64,000 nucleotides of DNA from Thermothelomyces thermophilus ATCC 42464. Lineage: Eukaryota > Ascomycota > Sordariomycetes > Sordariales > Chaetomiaceae. Both the position numbers and the translations under genes were made by a program. The stretch lies in NCBI RefSeq assembly GCF_000226095.1, contig NC_016477.1, forward strand, positions 1,488,001 through 1,552,000, given 5' to 3'. Under the pieces are notes generated by a model. That model ran no database searches, was not told the DNA's origin, and saw only the letters and a list, made by a program, of their open reading frames with translations. Of the stretch, positions 2,058 through 36,436 are shown in pieces (the first letter of the stretch is position 1; each line of letters begins with the position of its first letter).

Positions 2058-2508
2058 TGTCACAAACCAACCATATACCGCGACCCGGTGGGGCGCAGAG
2101 GGCTAAATGAGCCACCAATCAAGAAGGGCACGAAGCAAGGCTGACGCGGATCGCTAGGGAGCGCAGGCTACCACGGGCGAACAATCGCCAAAAGGGGAAA
2201 GATAGCAGAGGATAGCTAGCTACCAAAGGCGATCCAAGGACAGGACCAAAGAGGGCCATAAGCGGTCAGAAGGAGTATATATATATATAGATAGTCACTT
2301 GTTATAGTAGACTCTAGGAGTTCACTAGTAGTAACAATCACAATCACAGTACTTATACCAAGCATTGCTAATTACTATAAGAGACAACTCTAGTGTTATT
2401 ATAAACCCTTTAGCTTTACCAAATCCCTTAGACGACCTGCCTACTTGTCCTGCTTTACCTACCTCCGTCTAGACCCTTTTAGAAGAAGTCTGAGCTAGGT
2501 TTGTCACA
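2058..2508 (+). repeat. Element C 5' LTR (subfamily 2, 451 bp)
   Basis: Runs from TGTCACAAAC to TTGTCACA and is followed by the primer-binding region cgttattactactccc. The TATA-like run at about 2276-2290 is the subfamily-2 core promoter. Same length as the 3' copy, from which it differs only by scattered transitions. Confidence 0.92.
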
Positions 2509-2535
2509 CGTTATTACTACTCCCTTTGTTCTATT

Positions 2536-7700: not shown

Positions 7701-8783
7701 GGCGTCAACAGCAAGCTGTCAACAGCATATTACCTATAAACTGACAGACAAACGGAGCGACTAAACCAAGTTATCGAGTAGTATCTCCGTTCTTACGTCA
7801 ACTACTAGCAAGACGACTAGGTCATGCTATTACTAATAGTATAACTTGCTTATAATACGATGCCAACAGAAACGACTAAAGTTATACCATTCTTCGCGAA
7901 CTACGGATATAAAGCAGACCTTAGGTAAGGACTACAGGTCACAGTGCTAAGAGCAGCAGTCAAAGCAGAATAGATATACACACTATATAAGAAGCTTAAA
8001 AAGGAACTCGAGTTTGTCAAAACTAGAATAAAGAACTACTACGACAAATATAGGCTCGAGGGACCTTGCCTAGAGAGGGGAGACAAAGTCTACCTAATTA
8101 TACAAAACCTATAAACTAAACGACTAAGTATAAAGCTAGACTTTAAGAAGGTTAGACCCTTCGTTATCAAAGAACGAATTTCGATATCTAACTACTAATT
8201 ATCGTTACCGTCATCTATACGACTATAGATAGATGTTTTTTATATTTCACTTCTCGAACCAATACCAAAAAACGCTAAGGTTGCTATATATATCGAAGCA
8301 GAAGATAAAGAAGAAGAATAAGACGTCGAAGAAATTCTAGATTTACGTATCATCAACAGGGAACTATAGTACCTAGTCAAATGGCTTAATTTTAGACTAG
8401 AAGATAACTTATAGGAACCTATCAAGAACCTAAATTACCCTAAGAAACTAGAGCAGTTCTACTAGCAGAATCCTAACCAGCTATAAGAACTAGCTCTAAA
8501 GCCTATTCCCCGACAGAGAAAGAAGGGAACCTGCTAGAATTAGGACCAGGATCTAACCTAATCGACTCCTAATCAAGTACGTCAAAAGTACCTAACACCT
8601 AAGCCTGACCTGTAAGGGTCTGCGTCTCTGACATCAGTAGAGGAGTATCTAGTTCTTCCTCCTCTTCTAGACGAGCTACGCTACGACGAAAAACTTCGGT
8701 ACTACGATTACACAGGGATTGCTATAAACGACGTAATCGACTTAAACGGCTTAGCGTCTAAGCAAGCAGCGCTTCGGTCTTAG
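4761..8783 (+). pseudogene. Element C pol, RIP-mutated
   Basis: Follows gag in the -1 frame, as in D. Protease, reverse transcriptase, RNase H, integrase and chromodomain segments can be aligned in order. The longest surviving piece is 6141-6359, which still reads YLDDILIFSK. Beyond the chromodomain (about 8400) the sequence departs from D. The sense frame, allowing for RIP stops, stays fairly readable to a TAG at 8781, so subfamily 2 may have a longer Pol C-terminus overlapping its antisense gene. The 3' limit is approximate. Confidence 0.85.
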
Positions 8784-9170
8784 TAATCTCCCTCGAAACC
8801 TTCTCCTGCTCCGACAAATTCGAAAGGACTAAGATAGTTAGTAACCTAAGACTATAAAGGAAAATAACAAAGAACCTATAGGTATCCGTGACGTTCAGAC
8901 TACTACACTTCTTGCCTATATAAATACAATTTTAACACTTATTTAAACCCTCTATTATCATATAACGCTTCTACGGCTTCGTATTCTAACAACGCTCGCA
9001 AGGCATAGCGACTTTGTAACCCTCTCGCTCAATCTTAATCATAATAGCGTATTATTCGCGTTTAAGATCGCGACGATTCTTAGGAATATAATCAGCTATG
9101 ACGAAAGGAAGTTAGCGGAAGAAGGACGTACCTATTGAGAAAAGGGGGTGTTAGTAGTATTTAAAACAAG
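8540..9170 (-). pseudogene. Antisense gene of element C (subfamily 2), RIP-mutated
   Basis: Same sequence, in the other orientation, as the antisense gene remnant of B at 1606-2052 plus 9671 onward. It runs towards the chromodomain end of pol and occupies the space between pol and the polypurine tract at about 9200-9210. Cys codons and the phase-1 intron position can be located by alignment with B. Not functional. Limits are approximate. Confidence 0.5.
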
Positions 9171-9214
9171 TCATAAAAAGCTTTCGGGTCGAAAGCCCTA
9201 AAGAGGGGGCATCG

Positions 9215-9665
9215 TGTTACAAACTAACCATATACCGCGACCCAGTAGGGCGCAGAGGGCTAAATGAGCCACCAATCAAGAAGGGCACAAAGCGAGGCTA
9301 ACGCGGATTGCTAGGGAGCACAGGCTACTACGGGCGAACAATCGCCAAAAGGGGAAAGATAGCAGAGGATAGCTAGCTACTAAAGGCGATCTAAGGACAG
9401 GACCGAAGAGGGCTATAAGCGGTCAGAAGGAGTATATATATATATAGATAGTCACTTGTTGTAGTGGACTCTAGGAGTTCACCAGTAGTAACAATCACAA
9501 TCACAGTACTTATACCAAGCATTGCTGATTACTGTGAGAGACAACTCTAGTGTTGTTATGAACCCTTTGGCTTTACCGAATCCCTTAGACGACCTGCCTA
9601 CTTGTCCCGCTTCACCTACCTCCGTCTAGACCCTTTCAGAAGAAGTCTAAGCTAGGTTCGTCACA
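9215..9665 (+). repeat. Element C 3' LTR (subfamily 2, 451 bp)
   Basis: Begins TGTTACAAAC after the purine tract aaagagggggcatcg and ends TCACA. It is followed by tactt, the duplicated target. TATA-like run at about 9433-9446. Confidence 0.92.
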
Positions 9666-9670
9666 TACTT

Positions 9671-12600
9671 GCTTAGACGCTAAGCCGTTTAAGTCGATTA
9701 TATCGTTTATAGCAATCCCTACGCGATCGTAGTACTAAAGTTTTTCGTTGTAGTATAGCTTGTCTAGAGGAGGAGGAAGAACTAGATATTCCTCTGCCGA
9801 TATTAGAGATATAGACCTTTGCAGGTCAGGCTTAGGCGTTAGGTGCTTTTGATATACTTGATTAGGAGTCGATCGGGTTAGATCCTAGTTTTAATTCTAG
9901 TAGGTTCCTCTCTTTTTCTGTTAAGGAATAGGCTTTAGAGCTAGTTTTTATAGCTAGTTAGGATTCTATTAGTAGAACTGCTCTAGTTTCTTAGGATAAT
10001 TTAGGATTTTAACAGGTTCCTATAAGTTATCTTCTAGTTTAAAATCAAGCTATTTAACTAGGTACTATAGTTCTCTATTAATAATATATAAATCTAGAAT
10101 TTCTTCGATATCCTATTCTTCCTTTTTATCCTCCACTTCGATATATATAGTAATCTTAGCGTTCTTTAGTACTAGTTTGAGAAGTGAAATATAAAAGATA
10201 TCTATCTATAGTCATATAGATGATAGTAACGATAGTTAGTAGTTAGATGTCGAAATTCGTTCTTTGATAACAAAGGGTCTGACCTTCTTAAAGTCTAGCT
10301 TTGTACTTAGTCGTTTGGTTCGTAGGTTTTGTACGATTAGGTAAACTTTGTCTCCCCTCTCTAGGTAAGGTCCCTTAAGCCTATATTTGTTATAGTAGTT
10401 CTTCATTCTAGTCCTGACAAACTCGAGTTCCTTTTTAAGCTTCTTGTATAGTACGTACATTTGTTCTGCTTTGACTACTGCTCTCGGCACTATGACCTCT
10501 GGTCCTTGCCTAAGGTTTGCTTTATATCTATAGTTTGTAAAGAACAGTATGACTTTAGTCGTTTCTATTGGCGTCATATTATAGGCAAGTTATACTATTG
10601 GCAATAGCATGACCTAGTCGTCTTACTAGTAGTTAACATAAGAATAGAGATACTACTCGATAACTTGGTTTAGTCGCTCCATTTGTCCGTTAGTCTATAG
10701 GTAATATGCTGTTAATAGCTTACTATTAATGCCTAATTGTTACATTAACGCCTGCTAGAACTTCGATATGAACTTGGTATCTCTATTGGTAATCTATTCT
10801 TATAGCCAAGCGTATACTAATACGACTTGCTAATAGATTACGTCTACTAACTGTTTTGCTATCTAGGACTCCTTATAGGGAAAGAAGTATACCTATCTAG
10901 TCAGGCGGTCTACTATAGTGAGAATACTATTATAGATTACCCTTATAGCCGTGTCCTTAGATTCTAGTAGCTTCGTGATAAAGTCTATCGTAACTAAACT
11001 CCATGGTTTGTTAGCTATTAGCAGTAGCTAGAGTAGCCTATATGGCTTGTACCGTGCCGTTTTGCTTTAACTATAGATATCGTAATTCTATATAACTTCC
11101 TTAACTCGTACTATTAACTATAGAAAGTTATAGTGTTTCTTAACTTATATAATAGTCTTTGTAACTCCTTTGTACCCTCCGAGTTTCGATTTATAGAGTT
11201 CTTAAATCATTCGTAGCTATTAATCCCCGTCGTAGATATATACTTTGCCTCGGTACTAGAGTTTCCTATCTTTTTCTTCTACTCCATTAGGTACTACTAG
11301 TCCGGGTGTTACTTGATACTATGTCTTGTTAATCCTTTCTTCTTAAAAGATTATATAATATTCTAGGAACGAGTTAAGTAAATTATCTTCTATAGGTATC
11401 TACGTTTCGTAATATAGAGTTCTATCTATTTGTTCCTTAAATAACGGTAGCATTGTTTCCGTTCGTCCTTCTATATAATCCGTTTATCAGCTTAAGGCAT
11501 CCGCTTATACGTTCTCTTTGCCCTTCTTATAGCAGATCTCAAAATTGAATTCTATAAGGAATTCTACCTATTGTATTTATTATCTATTAAGCTCCTTCGT
11601 CATCGTAAAATATTGTAAATTCTTATAATCTATATACACTTATACTAGCTCGATCGTGCTACTAAGGTATAGTTACCATTCTTTAAAAGCTTTAATAATC
11701 GCAAGTAGTTCCTTATTATAGATTAGGTAATTGAGATATAGTCTATCGAGCTTCTTTAAAAAGAAGGCTATAGGATGTAACTTCCCTTGTTTGTCTCGTT
11801 ATCCTAATTGTCCTCTAATAGCATAGTCTAAAGCGTCCGTTTCCACCTTAAATGGCTTCTTAGGGTCTAGTAGCACTAATACTAGATCTTTAGTAATGGC
11901 GTCACGGATCTATATAAATGCTTACTCGTATTACTCTTCCTATTAGAATTTAGCGTTCTTCTTGGTAAGTTTATATAAAGGTCGTACGATCGCTCCGAAG
12001 TTCCTAATAAACATCTAGTAGAAGTTTGTAAATCTGATGAAACTTCGTACTTCCGTAACTAATGTCAGTCGTGGCCAATTCTTGATAGCTTTAACCTTTA
12101 AAGGTTCTATCCGAATTTGTCCTAGGAATATCTCGTATCCTAAAAACACTATCTTCCTAACGTAGAATTTGCTCTTTTCTTTGTTAACTAATAGTTTATA
12201 TATATATAATACGTCTAGTACTACTTTTATATACTTCTGGTGTTTGTCTATTGTCTTAGAGAAGATAAGTATATTATCAAGATAATATACTATAAATTTG
12301 TCGAGAAAGGGTCGGATAGCTTGATCAATTAGGGCTTAGAACATTACTAGCACGTTTGTAAGTCCGAATAGCATAACAAGGTACTTATAGTAACTATAAG
12401 GTATCCTAAAGGCCGTTTTCCACTTGTCGCCTTCTTTAATCTATATATAGTTATAGGCCAATAGTAAGTCAAGACATGTAAAATATTAGGCTCCTACTAA
12501 CTAATCTTAGAGCTATAAGATTAATAGTAACAGGTATCGGTTTTTCATGGTCTATTTATTAAGTTACTAATAGTTAACGTATAACTATAGCTTTCTGTCT

Positions 12601-12927
12601 TTCTTAGGTACAAATAGGATTAGGTAGCCCACTAGCGATGTTAATAGGTAGATATATCCTCTTCAAAGGTTCTCCTCTAAATATTGCTTAAGTTCTTCGT
12701 TCTAAGTCTAGCTTGTATAATAGATCTTAAAGAACTTTAGTCATACTCCTTCCTTAAGCTTAATCTCGTAATCCTATAGGCTATATTCTAGTAATCCTTC
12801 TAAATACTTCGGTTCGAATGCTAGGTATCCTTCGTATTCCTCCGGTACTTTCCTAGTCTTGTCTCATCTCTCGGTTCTCTAATAGTATATAAACTTAGTT
12901 CTATCTATAGCAATACTAGCGATTTCT
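9671..12927 (-). pseudogene. Element B pol, C-terminal two thirds (RT to chromodomain), RIP-mutated
   Basis: Reverse-complement alignment to D shows, from 12927 down, the segment after protease, reverse transcriptase (around 12300), RNase H, integrase and chromodomain (around 10060-10150). A 113-codon piece at 10236-10577 is still open and covers the integrase C-terminal part. The stretch 9671-9960 holds the 3' exon of B's antisense gene on the plus strand (frame reading RLEEEEELDIPLP). The insertion of D at 12928 separates this from the pol start at 20529. Confidence 0.87.
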
Positions 12928-13143
12928 TGTCACGAATAAGCACATGGGCGGCCTGGCAGGCTGCAGCCAGGACGCGGGACATTCCGACAGCCAATCACTT
13001 GACGGACCAATCAGAAGATTATCACCGCCAAGACTAAGGTCTTCACTGGTGATAATAACATGTCACCGTCGACAACGCAGAATCACGAAGTGAAAGGAGG
13101 AGTGGTACTGGTGATAACTATTGAAGAAGGACAGACAATTGTG

Positions 13144-13151
13144 TATATATA
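13144..13151 (+). promoter_or_regulatory. TATA box of element D
   Basis: TATATATA lies 49 bp upstream of the R-region motif at 13193 that would begin the self-priming transcript. The spacing is within the range seen for filamentous fungal promoters. The same TATA run is present in every LTR subfamily here. The transcription start itself is inferred. Confidence 0.6.
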
Positions 13152-13192
13152 GCTAGCTAGTCACTCGTTATGGTGGACTCTGGGAGTTCACC

Positions 13193-13203
13193 AGTGGTAA
13201 CAA
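13193..13203 (+). promoter_or_regulatory. Self-primer segment (likely 5' end of genomic RNA)
   Basis: AGTGGTAACAA is exactly complementary to the 11 bases at 13378-13388, which begin two bases after the LTR. In Tf1-type elements the 5' end of the mRNA folds back on the primer-binding site and is cleaved to prime reverse transcription. The location downstream of the TATA box fits that. Inference from complementarity and position. Confidence 0.65.
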
Positions 13204-13377
13204 TCACAATCACAGTACTCATACCAAGCATTGCTGATTACTGTGAGAGACAACTCTAAGTGTTGTTGTGAACCCTTTGGCTTCACCGAATCCCTCAGAC
13301 GACCTGCCTGCTTGTCCTGCTTCACCCACCTCCGTCTGGACCCTTTCAGAAGAAGTCTGAGTTGGGTTCGTCACACG

Positions 13378-13402: not shown

Positions 13403-15664
13403 ATGGTTCAGAACGGAGGAGACCTCGACCTCGACACCGACATGGATACCAACGTCACGGCCGAACAACTGCTCGCCCAGCTTGGTCAACTCCAGCAGCG
13501 GATCCAGGAGTTGGACCAGAGAGACAAGGCTGCTCAAGCTCGAATCAAGGAACTCGAGAACCGCGAAAAGTACTCGCAGAAGTTGGTCAACGAGGCCTAC
13601 GCCAAAATCGAGGCACTCGAGGGCGCCAAAGCGAAGCGCATCAAGATCGAACCACCTGGCAAATACGGAGGAACCAAGGAGGATCTCGCAGGATTCTTGA
13701 CAAACCTCCGATCCTACTTCCGGCTCAATGACGACAAGTTTCCGGACGACAAAGCCAAAGTCCTCTACGCAGCCACGAGACTAGAGGGCAAGGCACTCAG
13801 ATGGTTCGAGCCTACGTGGAACGACTATCTCACCGAGGAAGACGAAGACGACCGAGACGCGTTCACGCAGGCAGTCTTTCGATCCTACGACCGTTTCGAA
13901 GAAGAGCTTCGGAAGGTCTTTGGCGACAAAGACGAGAAAATCCATGCGCAAGAAAGACTCGCCAATCTCCGACAGACCAAGTCAGCAGCCTCCTACGCCG
14001 CACAGTTCAGACAGGACATGCTCAAGTCTCAGCTTAACGACGAGGCGTTGATGCAATTGTTCTATAACGGCTTGAAGGAAAAGGTCAAGGACGAGCTGTA
14101 CAAGTACGATCGGCCTGAGACTCTGGACGAATACATCGCGCAGGCCATCAGGATCGATGATCGACTCTACGCACGAGAGCAGCAGAAACGAGGTCGAATG
14201 AACGGAACCACGGTTAAGGCCAACGACAAGAAAAAGCGAGCGTACGTCAGTACCTCGTACGGGACGCACCCCGGAGCCATGGATGTGGATGCAGCGCAGA
14301 AGCAGGACCAGAAGAAGACGGCCAAAGACAAGTCTAATGTTACCTGCTACAACTGCGGAAAGAAAGGGCACTACAAGCGAGAATGCCGAAGCCCGAAGAA
14401 AGAATGGAAACCAACCCCTGGAAAGGAAATTGCGGCCATCGACGAAACCACCAAGGACGTCATCGAAGTAGCGGCCACGAGCTACGAAGACAAGGGCAGT
14501 GACACGGACAGTCTCGGACACGACGGCAACGGTGAAGACGAACAAGCACCGTACTCCGAACTGGTCACTGTGGACCCAGAGACAGGTCTTGCCGAATGGG
14601 ACATGGCAGGAGAATATGCACCGCCAGTTTCGATTCTCCCAGCCTTGAGGCAGTGGGGTTTCACAGTCACGCAGAGGCGGGATGGATCGTGGACAACCGA
14701 CACCCAAGGAATCGAAAGACCCGGACCCAATGCTCTATTCCTCCAGGAACGAATCGAATGGTACCGCAACGAAGTTTTCCGACTCAACACGGAACTGCGC
14801 GAACGGGATGGGCGCTTGACTCGACTCGCCCAGCAGAGCGAAGAGATGAAGGACGAAATGAGGGAACTCCGACGTATCGTGGAAGCCATCAAAGGAGAAC
14901 AGCCTGTGACATATGATGGGCCCGATAGCTACGCCGAGTACCTTGACGATCAGCAACTCAGCAACGACGTGCGGAACCCAGAATACCAGTTCATGCGCGC
15001 GAACCGCGGAAAAGACGAACGCACGTGGGAAAGCTACTGGAAGAAACACTCCTATGTCAGCACTGGAGTACCTACGGTCCACGTACAATGGGAAGGATTC
15101 GGGAAAGAATTCCAATACCTCCCAGGCGACGCCATGCGACTGCACCCTCGACACGAGGCACATGCGCAAGTGCCCTGGTTTCAGTGTGTGGCACACGAAT
15201 GTCGATATCACTTCCGCGACAAATTCGAAAACAATCATTGGCCGACCCGACAGGAAAACGGGGACGGAGGCTTACGCCCTGTGGAATGGGTCTACGATGC
15301 AGGAAACAGAGCGGCCGAATTGCTCTGGAAGATCGAAGCCCGCAATTCAGAAAGCATCACGATAGTTCCAAGACGAGCCTGGCCTAGGCACTGCGGAACC
15401 GGACGAGACACATGGGACTCGTGCTGGAGCAACGATTGCCTCTATCACGCGGACGAAAAGAAATTGCGAATTCGGGAGCTTCAGACGAAGCTATGGCACG
15501 CACGACGGAAAGCAGAACGGACCCAATGGTGGGAAGCCGCAAGCACTCAATGGCTCACGGAAATGAGCACGATCGACGAAGCCGCTATCAGCCGAACAAC
15601 CGAAGAGGTCAGCACTGACCTGGGAAACGGGTCAGGGCCCTTCGAGGGGCCCGGAAACCATTAA
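13403..15664 (+). CDS. gag: Gag polyprotein of element D (753 aa)
   Basis: Structural protein that forms the cytoplasmic virus-like particle and packages element RNA. Residues about 20-85 are a heptad-rich coiled coil (repeated LAQLGQLQQRIQEL-type sequence). Residues about 95-260 resemble the retrotransposon Gag capsid domain (YFRLNDDKFPDDKAKVLYAA region). A CCHC zinc knuckle follows at C315, C318, H323 and C328. Unusually, about 340 residues come after the knuckle, with a second Cys/His-rich stretch (C595, H598, C600, H603 and H663, C664, C674, C679, H682) of unknown role. The ATG at 13403 is 15 bases past the primer-binding site and is the first in frame. Translation ends at TAA 15662 or shifts into Pol at 15622-15628. 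Much longer than typical chromovirus Gag. Confidence 0.93.
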   Translation: MVQNGGDLDLDTDMDTNVTAEQLLAQLGQLQQRIQELDQRDKAAQARIKELENREKYSQKLVNEAYAKIEALEGAKAKRIKIEPPGKYGGTKEDLAGFLTNLRSYFRLNDDKFPDDKAKVLYAATRLEGKALRWFEPTWNDYLTEEDEDDRDAFTQAVFRSYDRFEEELRKVFGDKDEKIHAQERLANLRQTKSAASYAAQFRQDMLKSQLNDEALMQLFYNGLKEKVKDELYKYDRPETLDEYIAQAIRIDDRLYAREQQKRGRMNGTTVKANDKKKRAYVSTSYGTHPGAMDVDAAQKQDQKKTAKDKSNVTCYNCGKKGHYKRECRSPKKEWKPTPGKEIAAIDETTKDVIEVAATSYEDKGSDTDSLGHDGNGEDEQAPYSELVTVDPETGLAEWDMAGEYAPPVSILPALRQWGFTVTQRRDGSWTTDTQGIERPGPNALFLQERIEWYRNEVFRLNTELRERDGRLTRLAQQSEEMKDEMRELRRIVEAIKGEQPVTYDGPDSYAEYLDDQQLSNDVRNPEYQFMRANRGKDERTWESYWKKHSYVSTGVPTVHVQWEGFGKEFQYLPGDAMRLHPRHEAHAQVPWFQCVAHECRYHFRDKFENNHWPTRQENGDGGLRPVEWVYDAGNRAAELLWKIEARNSESITIVPRRAWPRHCGTGRDTWDSCWSNDCLYHADEKKLRIRELQTKLWHARRKAERTQWWEAASTQWLTEMSTIDEAAISRTTEEVSTDLGNGSGPFEGPGNH
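15622..15652 (+). promoter_or_regulatory. Programmed -1 ribosomal frameshift site (gag-pol)
   Basis: The heptamer GGGAAAC at 15622-15628 is read in the gag frame as G GGA AAC, a classical X XXY YYZ slippery site. Slipping back one base gives GGG AAA in the pol frame, which is open from 15619. After a 6-base spacer comes a hairpin: GGGCCC (15635-15640) pairs with GGGCCC (15647-15652), a T-G wobble closes the top, and the loop is TCGA. Six consecutive GC pairs make this a strong block. Pol has no nearby ATG, so this is the likely route of Pol synthesis. Confidence 0.85.
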
Positions 15665-18600
15665 CGCCCGTGCAGCGGCAAGTGGTAGCGCAGTACAGGA
15701 GGAACTGGCGCAAGGGACCACTATATCGAGACCTCCCGGCAGAAACATGGGAAATCGCTGCAATCTTTGGACGACGGCGGCAAGACAAGCGACTGTGGAT
15801 AACAGCACAATGGAGACAGCACGAAATGCTCGCACTAGTGGACAGTGGAGCAGAGATGAATCTGATTTCGCCGACACTTGTGAATCAGCTACGGATACCC
15901 TGGAGAATGAAGCGGAAGCATGGCATAGTCAAAGGGCCATTTCCGACGCAATGGGTACGCAGAGAGACCGAACCGATCGACATCACTGTGGCAGGGAAGA
16001 CCACAGCAGTCGTATTCAGCATCGTGGACATGGGCAACGACAAAGACATGATATTGGGGTTACCATGGCATGAAGATTACGACCCGGACATCAGCTGGAA
16101 GAATGGTGGCCACCTGCGACCCCGAACGGAGTCGTATTCGACCAGCAAGATGGGGAGCGCGCAAGGATCGCGAGCGGACGATGCTCAAGGAAAGGCATGT
16201 CCTACGGATCCACCGCAAGAGACGGACAGTGGCAGGCAGACCACTACGGACTCTGGAAGAGGCGGCACAACGACATCGATATTGCGACAGGAGGAACGAG
16301 CTGAATCGCCGATAGCTGTTCTCTCCGTTGACGAATGCGGAGCACTGCAATTGGAGCAGTGGGTTGAGACAGGAGAAATCGCCAGTATCGCCATGGACGG
16401 AACCAAGTTCGCATACTATCAGAAAACCGAGAGACGAGACAAGACTGGGGAAGTACCGAAGGAGTATGAGGGACACCCAGCATTCGAACCGAAACATCTG
16501 GAAGGATTACCAGAACACGGCCCATGGGATCACGAGATCAAGCTCAAGGAAGGAGCACGACTGAAGTTCTTCAAGATTTACCACACGAGCCAGACGCAGA
16601 ACGAAGAACTTAAGCGATATTTGGAGGAGAACCTTCGAAGAGGACATATCCGCCCGTCGACATCGCCAGCAGGCTACCCAATCCTGTTTGTGCCAAAGAA
16701 AGACGGAAAGCTACGGTTATGTGTCGACTATCGGCAACTCAACGAACAGACCGTGAAAAACCGATACCCGTTACCGCTGATCTCACGGCTCCGAGATCAG
16801 TTGGCAGGAGCCCAATATTTCACGCGTCTTGACTTGCCATCGGCCTACAACCACATACGGATCAAAGAAGGCGACGAGTGGAAAACGGCCTTTAGGACAC
16901 CCTATGGCCACTACGAGTACCTCGTCATGCCATTCGGACTTACGAACGCGCCGGCAACGTTCCAAGCCCTGATTGATCAAGCTATCCAACCCTTTCTCGA
17001 CAAATTTGCGGTATGTTATCTCGACGACATACTCATCTTCTCCAAGACGATGGACGAACACCGGAGGCACGTGAAAGCAGTGCTGGACGCGCTGCACGCG
17101 TACAAGCTATCAGTCAACAAGGAAAAGAGCGAATTCCATGTCAGGAAGACAGTCTTTTTGGGATACGAAATATCCCCCGGACAAATCCGGATGGAACCTT
17201 CAAAGGTTGAAGCCATCAAGAATTGGCCACAACCAGCGTCAGCCACGGAAGTACGAAGTTTCATCGGATTTGCGAACTTCTACCGGATGTTCATCAGGAA
17301 CTTTGGAGCGATCGCACGACCTTTGCACGAACTCACCAAGAAGAATGCTGAATTCCAATGGGAAGAGCAACACGAGCAAGCATTCACGCAAATCCGCGAC
17401 GCCATTACCGAAGATCCAGTACTGGTACTGCCAGACCCCAAGAAGCCATTCGAGGTGGAAACGGACGCTTCAGACTACGCCATCGGAGGACAATTGGGAC
17501 AACGAGACGAACAAGGGAAGCTACATCCTGTAGCCTTCTTTTCAAAGAAGCTCGACGGACCACGTCTCAATTATCCGATCCACGACGAGGAACTACTTGC
17601 GATTGTCGAAGCTTTCAAGGAATGGCGACCATACCTCAGCGGCACGATTGAACCGGTACAAGTGTATACGGATCACAAGAACTTGCGATACTTCACGACG
17701 ACGAAGGAACTCAACGGACGACAAATACGATGGGCAGAATTCCTCGCGGAATTCAACTTCGAGATCCGCTACAAGAAGGGCAAAGAAAACGCACGAGCAG
17801 ACATTTTAAGCCGACGAACGGATCACACGAAAGGACGAACGGGAACAACACCACCGTTGTTCAAGGAACGAACAGACGGGACGTTGCACCACGAAACGCA
17901 GACACCCGTGGAAGATGATCCACTTGACTCGTTCCTAGAATGCTGCGCAATCTTTCGAGAGGAAAGGATCAACGAGGCACAGTATCAAGCAGCACCCGGA
18001 CCAGTGGTACCTGACGGAGTGGAAGAAAGAGATGGGAAACTCTGGTACCGAGACAAAGCGTACATCCACGACAAGGATCAACAGCTGCGAATGATTCGAG
18101 AACTCCACGAATCAAAACTCGGAGGACACAAAGGAGTCACGAAGACTGTCGCACAAGTCAAGAAGCACTACGACTTTCCACAGTTAACGGCACGAGTTAA
18201 GGAAGTCGTACGGAACTGCGACATCTGCAATCGGAGCAAAACGGCACGACACAAGCCGTACGGGCTACTTCAGCCACTACCAACAGCTGACAAACCATGG
18301 AGTTCAGTTGCGATGGACTTCATCACGAAGCTGCCAGAATCCAAGGACACAGCCACAGGAGTGACCTACGACAGTATTCTTACTGTAGTAGATCGCCTGA
18401 CTAAGTGGGCATATTTCTTTCCCTACAAGGAGTCCTGGACAGCGGAACAGTTGGCAGACGTGATCTATCGGCAAGTTGCATCAGTGCATGCTTGGCCGCA
18501 AGAATGGATCACCGACAGAGACACCAAGTTCGCATCGAAGTTCTGGCAAGCGTTAATGCAACGATTAGGCGTCAACAGCAAGCTGTCAACGGCATATCAC

Positions 18601-19413
18601 CCGCAGACCGACGGACAAACGGAGCGACTAAACCAAGTTGTTGAGCAATACCTCCGCTCTTACGTCGATTACCAACAAGACGACTGGGTCATGCTGTTAC
18701 CAACAGCACAACTCGCCTACAACACGACGCCGACAGAAACGACCAAAGTCACACCGTTCTTCGCGAACTACGGATATGAAGCAGACCTTAGGCAAGGACC
18801 AGAGGTCACAGTGCCGAGAGCAGCAGTCAAAGCAGAACAGATGCACGCACTGCATGAAAAGCTCAAAAAGGAACTCGAGTTTGTCAAGACCAGAATGAAG
18901 AACTACTACGACAAACACAGGCTCGAGGGACCTCGCCTAGAGAGGGGAGACAAAGTCTACCTGATCGCACGAAACTTGCAAACCAAACGACCAAGCACGA
19001 AGCTGGACTTCAAGAAGGTCGGACCCTTCGTTATCAAAGAACGAATCTCGACATCCAACTACCGACTATCGTTACCGTCATCTATGCGACTACGGACGGA
19101 TGTTTTTCATATTTCACTTCTCGAACCAGCACCAAAGAACGCCAAGGTTGCCACGCACATCGAAGCAGAGGACGAAGAGGAAGAATGGGACGTCGAAGAA
19201 ATTCTGGATTCACGCATCATCAACGGGGAACTGCAGTACCTGGTCAAATGGCTTGATTTTGGACCAGAGGACAACTCATGGGAACCAGTCAAGAATTTGA
19301 ACTGCCCTGAGAAACTGGAACAGTTCCACCGGCAGAATCCGGATCGACCAAAGGAAAACCCGGGACAGAACCAAAGACGGCGCCCCAGTCGACAGCATCG
19401 ACGGCATCATTAA
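15628..19413 (+). CDS. pol: Pol polyprotein of element D (protease, RT, RNase H, integrase, chromodomain)
   Basis: Translated as a Gag-Pol fusion of about 2003 residues after the -1 shift. The frame has no early ATG (a GTG lies at 15670). Residues counted from 15670: aspartic protease LVDSGAE with D58; reverse transcriptase with YLDD at 450-453; RNase H TDASD at 598-602; integrase zinc finger H813, H820, C850, C853; catalytic triad D883, D949, E985, giving the expected 35-residue D-to-E spacing; C-terminal chromodomain from about W1173 (WDVEEILDSR, YLVKWLDF). It copies the RNA into DNA and inserts it. The chromodomain probably guides integration to particular histone marks, as known for chromoviruses. 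No internal stops or frameshifts. The last 125 bases overlap the antisense gene. Confidence 0.96.
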   Translation, partial: RVRALRGARKPLTPVQRQVVAQYRRNWRKGPLYRDLPAETWEIAAIFGRRRQDKRLWITAQWRQHEMLALVDSGAEMNLISPTLVNQLRIPWRMKRKHGIVKGPFPTQWVRRETEPIDITVAGKTTAVVFSIVDMGNDKDMILGLPWHEDYDPDISWKNGGHLRPRTESYSTSKMGSAQGSRADDAQGKACPTDPPQETDSGRQTTTDSGRGGTTTSILRQEERAESPIAVLSVDECGALQLEQWVETGEIASIAMDGTKFAYYQKTERRDKTGEVPKEYEGHPAFEPKHLEGLPEHGPWDHEIKLKEGARLKFFKIYHTSQTQNEELKRYLEENLRRGHIRPSTSPAGYPILFVPKKDGKLRLCVDYRQLNEQTVKNRYPLPLISRLRDQLAGAQYFTRLDLPSAYNHIRIKEGDEWKTAFRTPYGHYEYLVMPFGLTNAPATFQALIDQAIQPFLDKFAVCYLDDILIFSKTMDEHRRHVKAVLDALHAYKLSVNKEKSEFHVRKTVFLGYEISPGQIRMEPSKVEAIKNWPQPASATEVRSFIGFANFYRMFIRNFGAIARPLHELTKKNAEFQWEEQHEQAFTQIRDAITEDPVLVLPDPKKPFEVETDASDYAIGGQLGQRDEQGKLHPVAFFSKKLDGPRLNYPIHDEELLAIVEAFKEWRPYLSGTIEPVQVYTDHKNLRYFTTTKELNGRQIRWAEFLAEFNFEIRYKKGKENARADILSRRTDHTKGRTGTTPPLFKERTDGTLHHETQTPVEDDPLDSFLECCAIFREERINEAQYQAAPGPVVPDGVEERDGKLWYRDKAYIHDKDQQLRMIRELHESKLGGHKGVTKTVAQVKKHYDFPQLTARVKEVVRNCDICNRSKTARHKPYGLLQPLPTADKPWSSVAMDFITKLPESKDTATGVTYDSILTVVDRLTKWAYFFPYKESWTAEQLADVIYRQVASVHAWPQEWITDRDTKFASKFWQALMQRLGVNSKLSTAYHPQTDGQTERLNQVVEQYLRSYVDYQQDDWVMLLPTAQLAYNTTPTETTKVTPFFANYGYEADLRQGPEVTVPRAAVKAEQMHALHEKLKKELEFVKTRMKNYYDKHRLEGPRLERGDKVYLIARNLQTKRPSTKLDFKKVGPFVIKERISTSNYRLSLPSSMRLRTDVFHISLLEPAPKNAKVATHIEAEDEEEEWDVEEILDSRIINGELQYLVKWLDFGPEDNSWEPVKNLNCPEKLEQFHRQNPDRPKENPGQNQRRRPSRQHRRHH

Positions 19414-19999
19414 TCTGTGACGAGGGCATAGCAGGCGTCTCTTGCCGCTCAACCTCCTCCAACTCGTCCAAGGTCGACAGACCACGCGCCACCATGTCGG
19501 CACCTTTCTCCACCAAAAACTCCTTCTGCTGACGAAGACGCCGGAGCCGCGCAAGCTTTTCGGACAACTCGCGCTGGGCTTCTTCCAGACGGCGTTGAGA
19601 TTCATCCAGCTCAAGTTCGGCACGACGTTCAGCATCCTTGATACGACGCTGCTCCTGGAGAATGCGATCCACTAGAACGAACATCAGGAATCACATTCAA
19701 AAAAAAAAAAAAAAAAAAAAGAAGAAGAAAACGTGCTTACAGGAAGAAAGCGGTATGCCAGAGCCATCGCAAGAACGACCTCGACGAACGCAGGCTTCGC
19801 AACGCTTCGTACGCGCGATCATTTTGCAAACGAGGCCTTGCGACGCGCACCAAGAGCAAGGCATAACGACAAAACCGTTCTCAGCGATGTTCTGAGCAAG
19901 GGAAGCACGGTAACGTGCAGAATGCGACTTCCGTTTCTCTATCGGCATTTTGTCAACATGACGACCACGACGCAGAAACAGGGAGAATGCAGTACTCAC
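19289..19999 (-). CDS. Spliced antisense gene of element D: Cys-rich, coiled-coil protein (about 213 aa)
   Basis: Runs opposite to gag-pol. Exon 1 (19999-19741) encodes 86 residues with MPCSWC, a further Cys, KRCEAC and RSC, a compact cluster spaced like a small zinc-binding domain. The intron, 19740-19672 (69 bp), starts GTAAGC, ends TTCTAG and contains a long T tract. It splits a codon after its first base. Exon 2 (19671-19289) joins in frame and begins LDRILQEQRRIKDAERR. It is a charged coiled coil of about 50 residues and then has an LDELEEVERQ motif and an acidic tail ending QGSSNS. The gene lies between pol and the 3' LTR and overlaps the chromodomain end of pol. Damaged homologues with the same intron position exist in other subfamilies here. 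Function unknown; a regulatory or Gag-interacting role is only a guess. An alternative start is Met18. Confidence 0.75.
19699..19720 (+). repeat. Homopolymer (A)22
   Basis: A run of 22 A on the plus strand. On the minus strand it is a T tract inside the intron of the antisense gene, where it can serve as the pyrimidine-rich stretch. Likely to vary in length. Confidence 0.95.
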
Positions 20000-20060
20000 A
20001 AGCGAAGGGTTGTTGGCGCTATTTGAAACGGCCTAAGAGGGCTTTCGGGTCGAAAGCCTT

Positions 20061-20075
20061 GAAGGAGGGGCATCG
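20061..20075 (+). promoter_or_regulatory. Polypurine tract of element D
   Basis: gaaggaggggcatcg immediately precedes the 3' LTR. It is the expected RNase H-resistant primer for plus-strand DNA synthesis. Equivalent tracts (aaagagggggcatcg) precede the 3' LTRs of C and I. Confidence 0.85.
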
Positions 20076-20523
20076 TGTCACGAATAAGCACATGGGCGGC
20101 CTGGCAGGCTGCAGCCAGGACGCGGGACATTCCGACAGCCAATCACTTGACGGACCAATCAGAAGATTATCACCGCCAAGACTAAGGTCTTCACTGGTGA
20201 TAATAACATGTCACCGTCGACAACGCAGAATCACGAAGTGAAAGGAGGAGTGGTACTGGTGATAACTATTGAAGAAGGACAGACAATTGTGTATATATAG
20301 CTAGCTAGTCACTCGTTATGGTGGACTCTGGGAGTTCACCAGTGGTAACAATCACAATCACAGTACTCATACCAAGCATTGCTGATTACTGTGAGAGACA
20401 ACTCTAAGTGTTGTTGTGAACCCTTTGGCTTCACCGAATCCCTCAGACGACCTGCCTGCTTGTCCTGCTTCACCCACCTCCGTCTGGACCCTTTCAGAAG
20501 AAGTCTGAGTTGGGTTCGTCACA
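20076..20523 (+). repeat. Element D 3' LTR (448 bp)
   Basis: I find no difference from the 5' LTR over 448 bases. It is followed by the duplicated target tttct, after which element B's pol resumes. Confidence 0.96.
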
Positions 20524-20528
20524 TTTCT

Positions 20529-21273
20529 TCTGTCTCAACCTACTACTCTAGTTACAATGCTCCGCATTCGTCAACAGAAAGAATAGCTATCGGCGGTTTA
20601 GCTTGTTCCTTCTATCGTAACGTCAGTATCGATATACCGCTTCTTCTAGAGTCTATAGTAGTCTGCCTACTACTATCCGTCTCTTATAGTAGATCTATAG
20701 GATATGCCTTCCCCTAAGTATCGTCTGCTTGCGATCCTTATATACTCTCTATCTCGCTAGTTAAATATAACTCTATTCGGGGTTATAGGTAGCTACTATT
20801 CTTCTAGCTAATGTCCGGGTTGTAATCTTCATACTATAGTAACCTTAATATTATATCTTTATCGTTACCTATGTCTACGATACTAAATATAACTACTATA
20901 ATCTTCCCTACTATAGTAATGTCAATTAGTTTAGTCTCCCTATATACCTATTATATTAGAAATAGCCCCTTGACTATACTATACTTCTACTTTATTTTCT
21001 AGGGTATCTGTAGCTAATTTATAAGTATTGGCGAAATTAGGTTTATCTCTGCTCTACTATCTACTAGTATGAGCATTTCGTACCATTTCCATTATATTGT
21101 TATCTATAATCGCTTATCTTGCCGTTGTCATCTAAAGATTGCAGCGATTTCCTATGTTTCTGCCGGGAGGTCTTGATATAGTAGTCTCTTACGCCAGTTC
21201 CTCCTATACTACGCTACCACTCTCTGCTATATAGGCGTAAATGATTTTCGGGCCCCTTGAAGGGCCCTAACCC
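20529..21273 (-). pseudogene. Element B pol, N-terminal part (protease), RIP-mutated
   Basis: Reverse complement of the start of pol, from the frameshift hairpin (GGGCCC copies near 21250-21270) through the protease region. It ends at the D insertion. The plus-strand ORF at 20379-20717 is a shadow running from D's LTR into this fragment. Confidence 0.88.
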
Positions 21274-23502
21274 GTTTCCTAGGTTAGTATTAACCTCTTT
21301 AGTTATTTGGCTAATAGCGGCTTTGTCGATCGTGCCTATTTCTACGAGCTACTAAGTGCTTATAGCTTCTTACTATTAGGTCTATTCTGCTTTCTATTGT
21401 ACGTACTATAGCTTTATCTAAAGTTCCCGAATTCGCGATTTCTTTTCGTCTGTATAGTAGAGGCAATCGTTACTCTAGCACGAGTCCTATATATCTTGTC
21501 CTATTCTGTAGTACCTAGGCTAGGCTTGTTTTAGAACTACTATAATGCCTTCTAGATTATAGGCTTTAATCTTCTAGAGCAATTCGGCCGCTCTGTTTCC
21601 TACATTATAGACCTATTCTATAAGGCAGAGGCTTCTGTCCTTATTTCCTTATTAGGTCGGCTAGTGATTGTTTTCGAATTTGTCGCGAAAGTAGTATCGG
21701 CATTTATATAATATACACTAGAACTAGGGCACTTATATATATGCCTTGTATTACAGGTATAGTTATATAGCATTGCCTAGAAGGTATTAGAATTCTTTTC
21801 TAAATCCTTCCTACTATATATAGACTATAGGTACTCTAATGCTAAGGTAAGAGTATTTCTTCTAATAGTTTTCCTCTATATATTTATCTTTTCCACGGTT
21901 TATATATATAAACTAGTACTCTAGGTTCCGTACGTTATAACTAAGTTACTAATTGTCAAAATACTCGGTGTAGCTATTAGGCCTATCGTATATTATAGAC
22001 CATTCTCTTCTAATAGTTTCTACGATACATTAGAGTTCCCTTATCTTATCCCTTATCTTATCGCTCTATTAGGCAAGTCGAATCAAGCGTCTATCCCGTT
22101 CGCGTAGTTCCGTGTTAAGCCGGAAAACTTTATTACGGTACTATTCGATTCGTTCCTAGAGGAATAGAACATTAGGTCCAGGTCTCTCGATTCCTTAGGT
22201 ATCAGTCGTCTACAATCTATCCTACCTCTAGGTAACTATAAAACCCTACTGCCTCAAGGCTAGGAGAATCGAAATTGGTAGTACATACTCTCTCGCCGTG
22301 TCCTATTCGGCAAGACCTGTCTCTAGGTCTACCGTGACCAGTTTAGAGTACGGTGCTTGTTCGTCTTTACTATCGCTGTTGTGTTCGAGACTATCTATAT
22401 CGCTATCCCTGTCTTTATAGCTTGTAGCTACTACTTTAATAATATCCTTAATGGTTTTATTAATAGCTGTAATTTCCTTTCTAGGGACTGTTTTCTACTC
22501 TTTCTTTAGGCTTCGACATTCTTACTTATAGTGTCCTTTCTTTCTATAGTTATAGTAGATAATATAGAACTTGTCTTTAGTCGTCTTCTTTTGGTCTTGC
22601 TTCTATATTATATCTATATCTATAGCTCTAGGATATATCCTATATAAGGTACTAATGTATACTCGTTTTTTCTTGTTATTAGCCTTGACTATAGTTCCAT
22701 TTATCTGACCTTATTTCTACTACTCTTATATATAGAGTTAATTATCGATTCTAATAGCCTATATAATATATTTATCTAGGGTCTTAGGCCGATTATACTT
22801 ATATAGTTTATCTTTAACCTTTTCCTTTAAGCTATTATAAAATAGTTATATTAACGCCTTATCGTTAAGCTAAGACTTAAATATGTCCTATCTAAACTAT
22901 ATAACGTAAGAGGCTACTAACTTAGTCCATCGGAAATTAGCAAGTCTTTCTTATATATAAATCTTCTTGTCCTTGTCGCTAAAAACCTTCTAAAGCTCTT
23001 CTTTAAAACGGTTATAAGATTAAAAGACTACCTATATAAATATATCTCGGTCGTCTTTATCTTCCTTAGTAAAATAGTCATTCTATATAGGCTCAAACCA
23101 TCTAAGTACCTTACCCTCTAGTCTTATAGCTATATAGAGAACTTTAGCTTTATCATCCGGAAACTTATCGTCATTAAGCCGAAAGTAAGATCAGAGGTTT
23201 GTTAGGAATCCTATAAGATCTTCCTTAGTTCCTCTATATTTACTAGGTAGGTCGATCTTGATACGGCTCGCTTTGGCGCCTTCGAGTGCCTTGATTTTAG
23301 TATAGGCTTCGTTAACTAGCTTTTACGAGTACTTTTCGCCGTTCTTGAGTTCCTTAATCCGAGCTTAAGTAACCTTATCTCTCTAGTTTAACTCCTAGAT
23401 CTGCTAATAGAGTTAACTAAGCTAGGCAAGCAGCTATTTAGCCGTAATATTAATAGTCATATTAATGTCAAGGTCGAAATTACCTTTGTCCTAAACTTTA
23501 AT
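21237..23502 (-). pseudogene. Element B gag, RIP-mutated
   Basis: Aligns over its length with D gag. The zinc-knuckle Cys codons near 22530-22560 are mutated, and Gln and Trp codons have become stops. Start and stop codons are both altered, so limits are by alignment. Confidence 0.88.
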
Positions 23503-23526
23503 AGAATAAAGGGAGTAATAATAACG

Positions 23527-24430
23527 TATAACGAACCTAACTTAGACTTCTTCTAAAAAGGTTTAGACAAAGGTAGGTTAAGCAGGACAAGTATATAGGT
23601 CATCTAAGGGATTTAGTAAAGCCAAAGGGTTTATAATAATACTTGTCACGGATAAGCACATGGGCGGCCTGGCAGGCTGCAGCTAGGACACGGGACATTC
23701 CGACAGCCAATCACTCGACGGACCAATCAGAAGATTATCACCGCCAAGACTAAGGTCTTTACTGGTGATAATAACATGTCACCGTCGACAACGCAGAATC
23801 ACGAAGTGAAAGGAGAAGTGGTACTAGTGATAACTATTAAAGAAGGACAGACTATTATATATATATAGCTAGCCAGTCACTTGTTATGGTAGACTCTAGA
23901 GTTCGCCAGTGGTAATAATCATAATCACAGTACTTATACCAAGCATTGCTGATTACTGTAAGAGACAACTCTAAGTGTTGTTGTAAACCCTTTGGCTTCA
24001 CCGAATCCCTTAGACGACCTGCCTGCTTGTCCCGCTTCACCTACCTCCGTCTGGACCCTTTTAGAAGAAGTCTGAGTTGGGTTCGTCACAATACTAGAGT
24101 TATCTCTTATAATAGTTAACGATACTTAGTATAAGTACTATAATTATAAGTTACTATTATTAGTAAACTCCTAGAGTCTATTATAATAAGTGGCTATTTA
24201 TATATATATATACTTTTGCCGATCGCTTATAGTCCCCTTCTATCCTGTCTTTAGATCGCCTTTGGTAGCTAGCTATCCTCTACTATCTTTCCCTTTTGGC
24301 AATCGTTTGCCCGTGGTAGCCTGTGCTCCCTAGCGATCCCGTGTTAGCCTCGCTTCGTGCCCTTCTTGATTGGTGGCTCATTTAGCCTCCTGTGCCCCAC
24401 CGGGTCGTAGTATATGGTTGGCTTGTGACA
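23527..24430 (-). repeat. Element B 5' LTR, interrupted by solo LTR E
   Basis: Subfamily-2 LTR reading TATAACGAACC (from TGTGACGAACC) at its left end and ending TTGTGACA. Removing 23644-24095 leaves 452 bp, the same as its partner at 1154-1605. Confidence 0.9.
23644..24090 (+). repeat. Solo LTR E (subfamily 1), lightly RIP-mutated
   Basis: 447 bp closely matching element D's LTR, with roughly 30 differences that are mostly C-to-T or G-to-A. It is flanked by atact at 23639-23643 and 24091-24095, so it arose by LTR-LTR recombination of a complete insertion in B's 5' LTR. Its light damage sets it between D (none) and the saturated copies. Confidence 0.92.
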
Positions 24431-28927: not shown

Positions 28928-29346
28928 TGTAACGAACCTAACTCAGACTTCTTCTAAAAGGGTCTAGACGGAGGTAGGTGAAGCGGGACAAGCAGGCAGG
29001 TCGTCTGAGGGATTCGGTGAAGCCAAAGGGTTTATAACAACACTTAGAGTTGTCTCTTATAGTAATTAGCAATACTTAGTATAAGTACTATGATTGTGAT
29101 TGTTACTACTGGCGAACTCCTAGAGTCCACTATAACAAGTGACTATCTACATGTATATATAATCCTAGTGATCATTCCTAATCATAGTAATCGTAAGTAA
29201 TCGTATAGCGGTAATCACCCTAATTACTAGTAAGCGTAGTGATCACTATGCTTCCCATGCTGTAATTGGTCCTTTCGTTCCTTTGACTTAATTAGCCTAT
29301 TCGTGCCAGTGGCTTAGGCGGCATCTATATATATATTTCCGTAATA
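28928..29346 (-). repeat. Element G 3' LTR (subfamily 3, 419 bp)
   Basis: Inverted LTR reading TGTAACGAACC at its left end and ending CCGTAATA (from ...GTGACA). The reversed purine tract gccttccctcc follows. The U3 half contains several GATC-centred palindromic motifs (see 36255-36345 for the clearer copy). Confidence 0.9.
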
Positions 29347-29454
29347 CGATGCCTTCCCTCCAAGGCTTTTAACCCAAAAGCCCTCTTTAGGCCGTCTCAA
29401 ATAGCGCTAACATCCCTTGCGTTCCTTGTACGTGTTTTTTTCCTTAGCCTCTTT

Positions 29455-30086
29455 TTGCCCTTCGTGCTATCAGTCATATCGTCTAACGCGCGTAGATCCC
29501 TAGCGTCTATTCGTCGTGAGCGTTTAGCTCAGTTTATTTCCGATCACGGGTTCGTAGTGATGGCGTATTCTCATTGCGCGGAGTACAACCGAGTGTATAA
29601 GATGATTGAAAAATCTCGTCGTTACGAGGCTTACGTACGTCGGGGTCGTGCTTACGATGGTTCCGGCGTTCTAGTTTCTTCTTATAAATTCCCGTTTCCT
29701 TGTAAGAGTATATCTCTGATTATAATGTAGTAGATCGTATTATACGTAAGCAACGTCGTTTAAAGGCTAAAGAGAAAGAGGCCGAAGCCTTGCTACGAGA
29801 ATATTAATGTAAAGCTTCTAAGGTATTGGCCTATCTAACTTAGGTCTATAAATAACAAGAATTCCTAGTAGAGAAGGGGGTAGACATAGTTATACGGGGT
29901 TTGTCAAATCTAAACGAATTGGAGGCAGTAGAATAGCAGGAATTGGGGGCCGTTATATAGCTTAACGGTGGCGTTGACGTTATTAACTAGGGCGCTGTTT
30001 TTGGTTCTGTCCTAGATTTGCCTTTGGCCGATCTAGGTTCTACCGATAGAACTGTTCTAGTTTCTTAGAGTAGTTTAAATTCTTGA
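29455..30086 (+). pseudogene. Antisense gene of element G (subfamily 3), RIP-mutated homologue of the D antisense gene
   Basis: Exon 1 (29455-29683) encodes about 76 residues. It includes HGFVVMAYSHC, KSRRYEAYVRRGRAYDGSG and VLVSS, matching D's NGFVVMPCSWC, TKRCEACVRRGRSCDGSG and PLSS, with several Cys replaced by Tyr as RIP would do. The intron, 29684-29730, begins ATAAAT (from GTAAAT) and ends TGTAG. It splits the same codon in the same phase as in D. Exon 2 (29731-30086) shows QEFLVEKGVDIVIRGLS, like D's KEFLVEKGADMVARGLS, and ends TGA 30084-30086 after the equivalent of D's terminal SSNS. It contains TAG and TAA stops and is dead. Confidence 0.8.
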
Positions 30087-33000: not shown

Positions 33001-33765
33001 TCTTGTCTTAACCTATTGCTCTAATTGTAGTGTTCTACATTTGTTAACGGAGAGAATAGCTATTAGTAAGAGAATAGCTATCGGTGATTTAGCTCGTTCC
33101 TCCTGTTGCGATATTGATGTCGTTATGCTGCCTCTTCTAGAGTCTGTAGTAGTCTGCCTACCACTATCTGTCTCTTGCGGTAGATCTATAGGATATGCCT
33201 TTCCTTAAGCATCGTCTGCTTATGATCCTTGTATACTCCCTATCTCGCTAGTCATATATGACTCCATTTAGGGTTATAGGTAGCTACTATTCTTCTAGCT
33301 AATGTCTAGGTCGTAGTCTTTATACTATAGTAACCCTAATATTATGTCTTTATTATTACCTATGTCCACGATGCTAAATATAACTACTGTAGTCTTCCTT
33401 GCTATAGTGATATCGATCGGTTTGGTCTCCTTGTATACCTATTACGTTAGAAATGGCCCTTTGACTATACTATGCTTCTACTTCATTCTCCAGGGTATCC
33501 GTAGCTAATTTATAAGTGTCGGCGAAATCAGGTTCATCTCTGCTCTACTATCTACTAGTACAAGCATTTCGTGCTGTTTCTACTGTGCTGTTATCTATAA
33601 TTGCTTATCTTGCTGCCGTCGTCCAAAGATTATAGCGATTTCCTATGTTTCTGCTAGGAGGTCTCAATATAGTGGTCTCTTACGCTAGTCCCTCCTATAC
33701 TATGCTACCACTTGCTACTATACAGGCGTTAATGGTTTCTAGGCCCCTCGAAGGGCCCTAACCCG
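29960..33765 (-). pseudogene. Element G pol, RIP-mutated
   Basis: Chromodomain (about 30110-30200), integrase, RNase H, RT (YLDD around 32350) and protease align in reverse order along the plus strand. Residual open pieces lie at 30286-30552 and 32017-32448. A near-duplicate of about 20 bases around 33042-33080 (agagaatagctat repeated) is a small local insertion. The 3' end is approximate. Confidence 0.87.
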
Positions 33766-36000: not shown

Positions 36001-36017
36001 AGGGAGTGGTAACAACG

Positions 36018-36436
36018 TGTGACAAACCTAACTTAGACTTCTTCTAAAAGGGTCTAGACGGAGGTAGGTGAAGTGGGATAAGTAGGCAGGTCGTCTAAGG
36101 GATTTGGTAAAGCTAAAGGGTTTATAATAATACTTAGAGTTGTCTCTTATAGTAATTAGCAATGCTTGGTATAAGTACTGTGATTATGATTGTTACTACT
36201 GGCGAACTCCTAGAGTCTACTATAACGAGTGACTATCTATATATATATATAATCCTAGTGATCATTCCTGATCACGGTGATCGTGAGTGATCGTATGGTG
36301 GTGATCACCTTAATCACTAGTGAGCATAGTGATTATTATGCTTCCCATGCTATAATTGGTCCTTTCGTTCCTTTGACTTGATTGGCCTATTTGTGCTAGT
36401 GGCTTAGGCAGCATCTGCATGTATATTTCCGTGATA
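36018..36436 (-). repeat. Element G 5' LTR (subfamily 3, 419 bp)
   Basis: Starts TGTGACAAACC at left and ends CCGTGATA. The primer-binding complement gtggtaacaa lies just left of it (about 36007-36016). Length equals its partner at 28928-29346. Confidence 0.92.

Follow-up and report, generated by a model that had tools for sequence, protein, structure and literature searches.

An antisense two-exon gene of a fungal chromovirus is replaced together with the U3 region and may encode its regulator

A stretch of 64,000 nucleotides of the Thermothelomyces thermophilus ATCC 42464 genome (positions 1488001-1552000 of contig C6; the whole stretch is called the window, and positions below are its own) carries an intact chromovirus with an antisense gene of two exons opposite gag-pol. 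The element is bounded by long terminal repeats (LTRs) of 448 bp, as read from the sequence, at 12928..13375 (5′, plus strand) and 20076-20523 (3′). A target-site duplication, TTTCT, precedes the 5′ LTR (12923-12927) and follows the 3′ LTR (20524-20528). The two LTRs are identical, the sole mismatch of their 451-bp local alignment being due to flanking bases. On the plus strand, gag (13403..15664; Retrotrans_gag, Ty3_capsid and zf-CCHC domains) is followed by pol (15670..19413), with protease, reverse transcriptase, RNase H, integrase and a chromodomain (PF00385). Between pol and the 3′ LTR, the sense strand holds only short mechanical open reading frames (ORFs) of 85-108 codons, without an ATG start.

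The antisense gene occupies the minus strand at this place. Exon 1 (19741..19948, 208 nt) starts with an ATG at 19948 and encodes a basic N-terminus and a cysteine cluster; exon 2 (19289..19671) encodes a coiled coil (predicted from the modelled homologue P0007), an acidic tail with the residue pair DW, and the stop. They are separated by a phase 1 GT-AG intron of 69 nt (19672..19740; GTAAGC...poly-T...CCTGATG...CTAG). The six cysteines (C31, C34, C41, C50, C53 and C60) are spaced C-x2-C-x6-C-x8-C-x2-C-x6-C, and the end of exon 2 overlaps pol by 125 bases (19289-19413). An earlier account made from the letters of the window, here called the sequence-only reading, had described both exons, the intron, the cluster and the overlap, and all are present in the sequence. 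It had also put the start at 19999, for a protein of about 213 codons; this position is a GTG, and translation is likely to begin with the ATG at 19948, giving 196 codons, because several homologues (P0003, P0005 and P0015) begin at the equivalent methionine. M-S-x-R starts are frequent among aligned family members, and P0004 is a gene model with a start farther upstream. The poly-T of the antisense intron is a plus-strand poly-A at 19699-19720. Three public T. thermophilus gene models, P0005 (MYCTH_105130), P0015 (MYCTH_66448) and P0071 (MYCTH_71551), cover the gene partially and with other splice choices, and are probably misannotated copies of it.

Copies of the gene were sought in the whole genome (38,744,216 bases, 7 contigs). 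There are at least 40 by DNA search, in which the best 40 were scored, and a protein search gave at least 217 matches. Eighty copies were fetched, 17 chosen for a stop-free exon 2 and 63 with stops. All 17 stop-free copies agree in exon length (208 nt for exon 1, 383 nt for exon 2) and encode an identical spliced protein, with 0 or 1 nt different from the window exons; intron length varies among them between 66 and 80 nt and takes all three phases. The stop-bearing copies have an exon 2 of 383 nt (38 copies) or 392 nt (25 copies), which leaves the frame intact, an exon 1 of 208 nt (59 copies) or 207 nt (4 copies), and introns of 52 to 89 nt. Loss of the intron was seen in 0 of the 80 fetched copies. 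The GT is retained in 15 and the AG in 55 of the 63 stop-bearing copies, a decay of splice sites expected of dead copies. A comparison of substitutions among intact copies, which the sequence-only reading had proposed as a check, proved uninformative: exons of intact copies differ by 0 or 1 nt, and older differences from the window consist almost entirely of transitions, of the kind that repeat-induced point mutation (RIP) produces. Substitution tests within this type of copy therefore carry no information. The length of the antisense intron differs among near-identical copies and is a fast length marker for insertions.

The genome was then searched with diverged relatives, and other antisense cassettes were found; six loci (L100-L105) were fetched, chosen by cassette and not by U3. 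By translation, the window cassette is type F1, those of L100, L103 and L105 are F3, and those of L101, L102 and L104 are F4, F2 and F5. Over 1816 bp of pol, the window differs from L100, L101 and L102 by 3, 1 and 1 transversions, all at third positions, and by 84, 94 and 145 transitions. In the same comparisons, the stretch from the pol end to the leader is replaced, and so is U3 (20076..20306 of the 3′ LTR, to just past the TATA box), which is type-specific. The leader (19998..20075, limits approximate), which contains the polypurine tract and would serve as 5′ untranslated region of the antisense gene, is retained and recognisable across all cassette types compared; R-U5 (20307..20523, plus strand) is retained and near-identical among them.

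The cassette proteins F1-F4 are only 28-57% identical among themselves. F1 is 79% identical to P0001 of Canariomyces, F2 78% to P0062, and F3 64% and 68% to P0016 and P0021, so that three of the four are nearer to proteins of other genera or metagenomes than to one another; F4 has no close relative (34-36%). On sequence comparison, the cassettes seem to predate the present spread of the shared pol, and we therefore infer that they were exchanged by recombination. The intron stands at the same point, in phase 1, in F1, F3, F2 and F4, with lengths of 69, 47, 49 and 51 nt, the limits in F2, F3 and F4 having been fixed by eye to fit homologues. CTGAT or CTGAC precedes the acceptor in all four; the donors are GTAAGC (F1), GTCCGT (F3), GTTCGT (F2) and GTAGGT (F4), those of F3 and F2 not being of the commonest form. 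Outside the pol overlap, transversions at codon positions 1/2/3 were 44/26/68 (F1-F3), 44/35/54 (F1-F2), 55/38/62 (F1-F4), 40/20/50 (F3-F2), 48/33/57 (F3-F4) and 47/36/57 (F2-F4). Position 3 was highest and position 2 lowest in six of six pairs, which are not independent. Transitions, blurred by RIP, also peaked at position 3 in six of six, and were lowest at position 1 in F1-F3. Exon lengths, homologues, intron position and codon-position divergence together support the claim of the sequence-only reading that the element has a genuine accessory gene here, whose intron is compatible with splicing, and they support the retention of this gene over deep divergence.

Relatives of the protein numbered 15 in a first search and 31 in a search with a diverged alignment of 14 sequences; a five-sequence alignment gave 128, of which 120 were listed, scoring having been confined to the 7998 candidates with the most words in common. 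The sequence-only reading had recommended a protein search for the cysteine-cluster architecture, and homologues do occur across many fungal genera: among the matches listed, sources include Canariomyces, Chaetomium, Corynascus, Staphylotrichum, Parathielavia, Verticillium, Colletotrichum, Metarhizium, Fusarium, Trichoderma, Pyricularia, Apiospora, Thyridium, Xylariaceae and, at the far end, Botrytis cinerea (P0143, E = 1.9e-16, fourth cysteine replaced by tyrosine). Over 66 aligned members (alignment A3), two of the six cysteines never vary, and the other four, like D161 and W162, are conserved in at least 90%. A DW pair beyond residue 100 is found in 63 of the 66, and the last 28% of the chains contains 666 acidic against 126 basic residues.

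The spacing of a Zn(2)-Cys(6) cluster is C-x2-C-x6-C-x5..12-C-x2-C-x6..8-C, and the window protein has the spacing of this pattern (PF00172). Zn_clus was the commonest Pfam match across the 66 members, with 29 at E ≤ 1 and a best value of 0.001. The window protein itself gave no Zn_clus match at E ≤ 1 and lay below the gathering score, and P0007 reached 16.0 bits, below the gathering score of 21. In their sources, several members are named 'Zn(2)-C6 fungal-type domain-containing protein'. In the AlphaFold2 model of P0007 (mean pLDDT 87), two short cluster helices are followed by one helix at 71-129. The long coiled coil of the sequence-only reading finds a counterpart in the long helix predicted for this homologue. 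The first of two Foldseek matches was a Pho7-DNA complex, at a weak score; Pho7 we take to be a Zn2Cys6 factor. The match to Put3 was also weak, and eight other chains outscored it in the same comparison. Cluster spacing, predicted helices and these weak matches suggest a dimeric DNA binder.

Two further features of the family were compared with the layout in the window. Of 112 members having the cysteine pattern, 23 were flagged for an in-frame insert where the two exons meet. By eye, 12 of these (P0004, P0016, P0018, P0019, P0033, P0034, P0035, P0036, P0045, P0053, P0056 and P0066) enter at R or G and exit at V or A, like an unspliced phase 1 GT-AG intron; inserts of other members, such as P0078, P0106 and P0135, did not look intron-like. 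Among 122 proteins searched, C-terminal ends matching the antisense of the pol chromodomain were found in P0014 (E = 3e-10) and P0021 (4e-7) of Corynascus, P0025 of Staphylotrichum (4e-7) and P0003 of Chaetomium globosum (0.003). The sequence-only reading had asked whether homologues lie antisense at chromovirus 3′ ends. By codon-choice scoring, 13 of 66 C-termini fit the antisense of the pol end in the window above all 60 shuffles (mid-protein controls, 2 of 66), which would agree with such a place for part of the family; the other 53, Botrytis-like and Fusarium members among them, showed no such fit, and their pol ends may differ or may not overlap. For P0143, the score of the C-terminus as antisense of pol was reached by 30 of 200 shuffles.

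The U3 regions contain repeated short sites. The words GTGAT and CGATC were picked by eye ahead of counting. The window U3 holds 5 GTGAT/ATCAC sites against 0.73 expected; L100, L102, L103, L104 and L105 hold 6, 4, 6, 8 and 6, with expected values of 0.5-1.0 over all six, and each count was matched by at most 3 of 1000 shuffles. The U3 of L101 (F4) has 0 GTGAT but 4 CGATC, matched by 3 of 1000 shuffles, and that of L104 has 3 CGATC besides its GTGAT sites. In an unbiased word count, the commonest 6-mer lay above all 300 shuffles in L100, L103, L104 and L105, that of L105 being a TA repeat, with GATCAC third. The window U3 beat all 300 shuffles with 8-mers only (GGTGATAA, three times), L102 nearly passed (7-mers, 1 of 300 shuffles), and the commonest word of L101 did not beat 300 shuffles. 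Candidate operator-like half sites in the window are TTATCACC at 20167..20174, GGTGATAA at 20196..20203, inverted relative to the first, and a third copy, GGTGATAA, at 20258..20265. The extended motif is GGTGATAA in F1 and GTGATC in F2, F3 and F5, which by eye have the distal U3 in common. The F3 U3 has three GATCAC-N10-GTGATC palindromes, 34 bp apart. Genome-wide, GGATCAC-N10-GTGATC occurs 138 times on one strand and 136 times on the other, many places being counted on both since the pattern is near-palindromic, and the reversed control has 0. Stretches of 231 bp (step 10) with at least 5 GTGAT occur at five places only in the 64 kb, all at LTRs.

Cassette and U3 types agreed at all complete 3′ ends examined: F1 in 80 of 80 fetched copies and the window, F3 in 3 of 3, F4 in 2 of 2, F5 in 2 of 2 and F2 in 1 of 1. 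Copies of the same type are not independent, so that the agreement amounts to five pairings. The only cassette/LTR mismatch seen was at 40700-41300, where a truncated F4 cassette with the pol end adjoins an LTR without the leader, of F3 type by its operator-like repeats; we read this as a later insertion or fusion.

We lean towards the view that the gene encodes a Gal4-like dimeric regulator of the element's own U3, co-inherited with U3 as one 3′ module. Held more tentatively, and perhaps not quite probable, is the wider proposal that regulator and target sites form an exchangeable module, so that within one genome the same pol travels with differing regulator/operator types, a retrotransposon counterpart of phage immunity regions. 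The protein would resemble the DNA-binding half of Gal4 or Put3, small and dimeric, with a Zn2Cys6-like cluster binding zinc, a linker and a coiled coil; its short acidic tail with the aromatic DW could act as an activation surface, touching the transcription machinery. The antisense transcript would start in the 3′ LTR, run leftwards and be spliced, and the protein would bind the repeated sites of the element's own U3, tuning element transcription. U3 lies upstream of the antisense gene in the 3′ LTR and drives gag-pol in the 5′ LTR. Since the gene, the polypurine tract and U3 are neighbours at the 3′ end of the genomic RNA, a single template switch near the pol end could move regulator and target sites jointly, which would explain why cassette and U3 change together on an otherwise constant pol. 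As to the sign of the action, activation is slightly favoured over repression because of the acidic tail and the sites just upstream of the TATA box. The sequence-only reading had proposed control of the element's copy number, which fits a regulator but is not demonstrated by it, and the countering of silencing, for which nothing in the analysis gives support.

One variant of this regulator, with which its probability overlaps, would be an autorepressor or exclusion factor that confers copy-number control or immunity against related elements; on its own it seems rather unlikely. New cassettes would be favoured for escaping resident repressors, as in phage immunity, and such escape would be expected to diversify cassette and U3 strongly while pol stays constant, as is seen here. 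The HBZ gene of human T-cell leukaemia virus type 1 (HTLV-1), antisense and spliced, lowers sense transcription (PMC3185765). The acidic DW tail, however, suits activation equally. Somewhat less probable still would be a real accessory protein that does not bind U3, that is, a nuclear or particle-associated coiled-coil zinc protein serving in nucleic-acid binding, integration or particle marking. The joint change with U3 would then arise only from their shared position at the RNA 3′ end, and adjacency does suffice to explain the linkage. The brtn gene of the Botrytis element Boty and plant antisense ORFs likewise have no function assigned in the accessible text of PMC7264820, where some plant products are nuclear. 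Yet the cluster spacing and architecture suit a DNA-binding dimer, and most U3 types have repeated, partly palindromic sites beyond those of shuffles.

It is very improbable that antisense transcription itself, through double-stranded RNA and silencing, is the function and the frame incidental. Non-coding antisense RNAs are discussed for other retroelements in PMC7264820, but exon lengths stay in frame beside a free intron length, transversions are in excess at position 3, and the cysteines are conserved over many genera. A chance open frame or annotation artefact is refuted in practice by the homologue family, the codon-position divergence and the constancy of exon lengths.

Genes of this placement have precedents. 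Zhao et al. (2011, Virology 417:248) reportedly described brtn of Boty-like retrotransposons in Botrytis cinerea. Gal4, Put3 and Pho7 are Zn2Cys6 factors with a linker plus coiled coil and paired target sites, and the window protein is like them in cysteine spacing, linker and predicted coiled coil, and paired candidate sites. They are far larger, with a half site CGG against the candidate GTGAT here, whereas the window protein lies below the Pfam gathering score where shown and is encoded by a mobile element. The sequence-only reading took gag-pol to be all that such elements normally carry; according to PMC7264820, an extra antisense gene at this position was already known from the fungal chromovirus Boty (brtn) and several plant elements, with no function assigned in the accessible text; PMC8365987, PMC4227169 and PMC5987419 are further sources on the subject. 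The likeness to brtn, described in that review and here read from sequence, is that a fungal chromodomain Ty3/Gypsy element has an additional antisense gene that follows pol and precedes the 3′ LTR. P0143 of Botrytis cinerea belongs to the present family. Linked exchange with U3 is not mentioned for brtn in the accessible text of the review (PMC7264820). The plant aORF-3R genes (Grande gene23, RIRE2, Retand, PvRetro13) share position and orientation with the window gene; in the accessible text of the same review, their proteins are without clear similarity to others. There too, the Grande ORF is transcribed from its own upstream promoter and some plant aORF products are nuclear. HBZ would work alike, being antisense, spliced, started in the 3′ LTR and a dimerising factor acting on its own element's transcription, but it is a basic leucine zipper protein, not a zinc cluster, from a retrovirus of people, and no homology is claimed (PMC3185765). 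So far as seen, three things appear new: the architecture of zinc cluster, coiled coil and acidic tail across a wide family, the conservation of the antisense intron, and the fact that gene and U3 are replaced jointly while pol stays constant.

Natural swaps of gene and promoter region on a constant pol within one genome make the function directly testable, and the antisense intron provides a clean marker, since it cannot be lost when the genomic RNA is retrotransposed. If the regulator reading is true, LTR retrotransposons have evolved regulators that recognise their own element, and the reading accounts for a wide family of fungal proteins labelled 'hypothetical'.

Other elements lie in the window. 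Inverted stretches at 10009-12927 and 20523-23644, 76-80% similar, stand on either side of the intact element, which appears to have inserted into an older relative that is RIP-mutated and lies on the opposite strand. A heavily RIP-mutated, decayed element at 2058-9666 (plus strand, limits approximate) has an F4 cassette and F4 U3, typed by eye, and probably belongs to the pol family of the intact element. A third, RIP-mutated element at 28928-36430 (minus strand, limits approximate) has, again by eye, an F5 cassette and F5 U3; this U3 is GTGAT-rich, with up to 9 sites per 231 bp within the window's LTRs.
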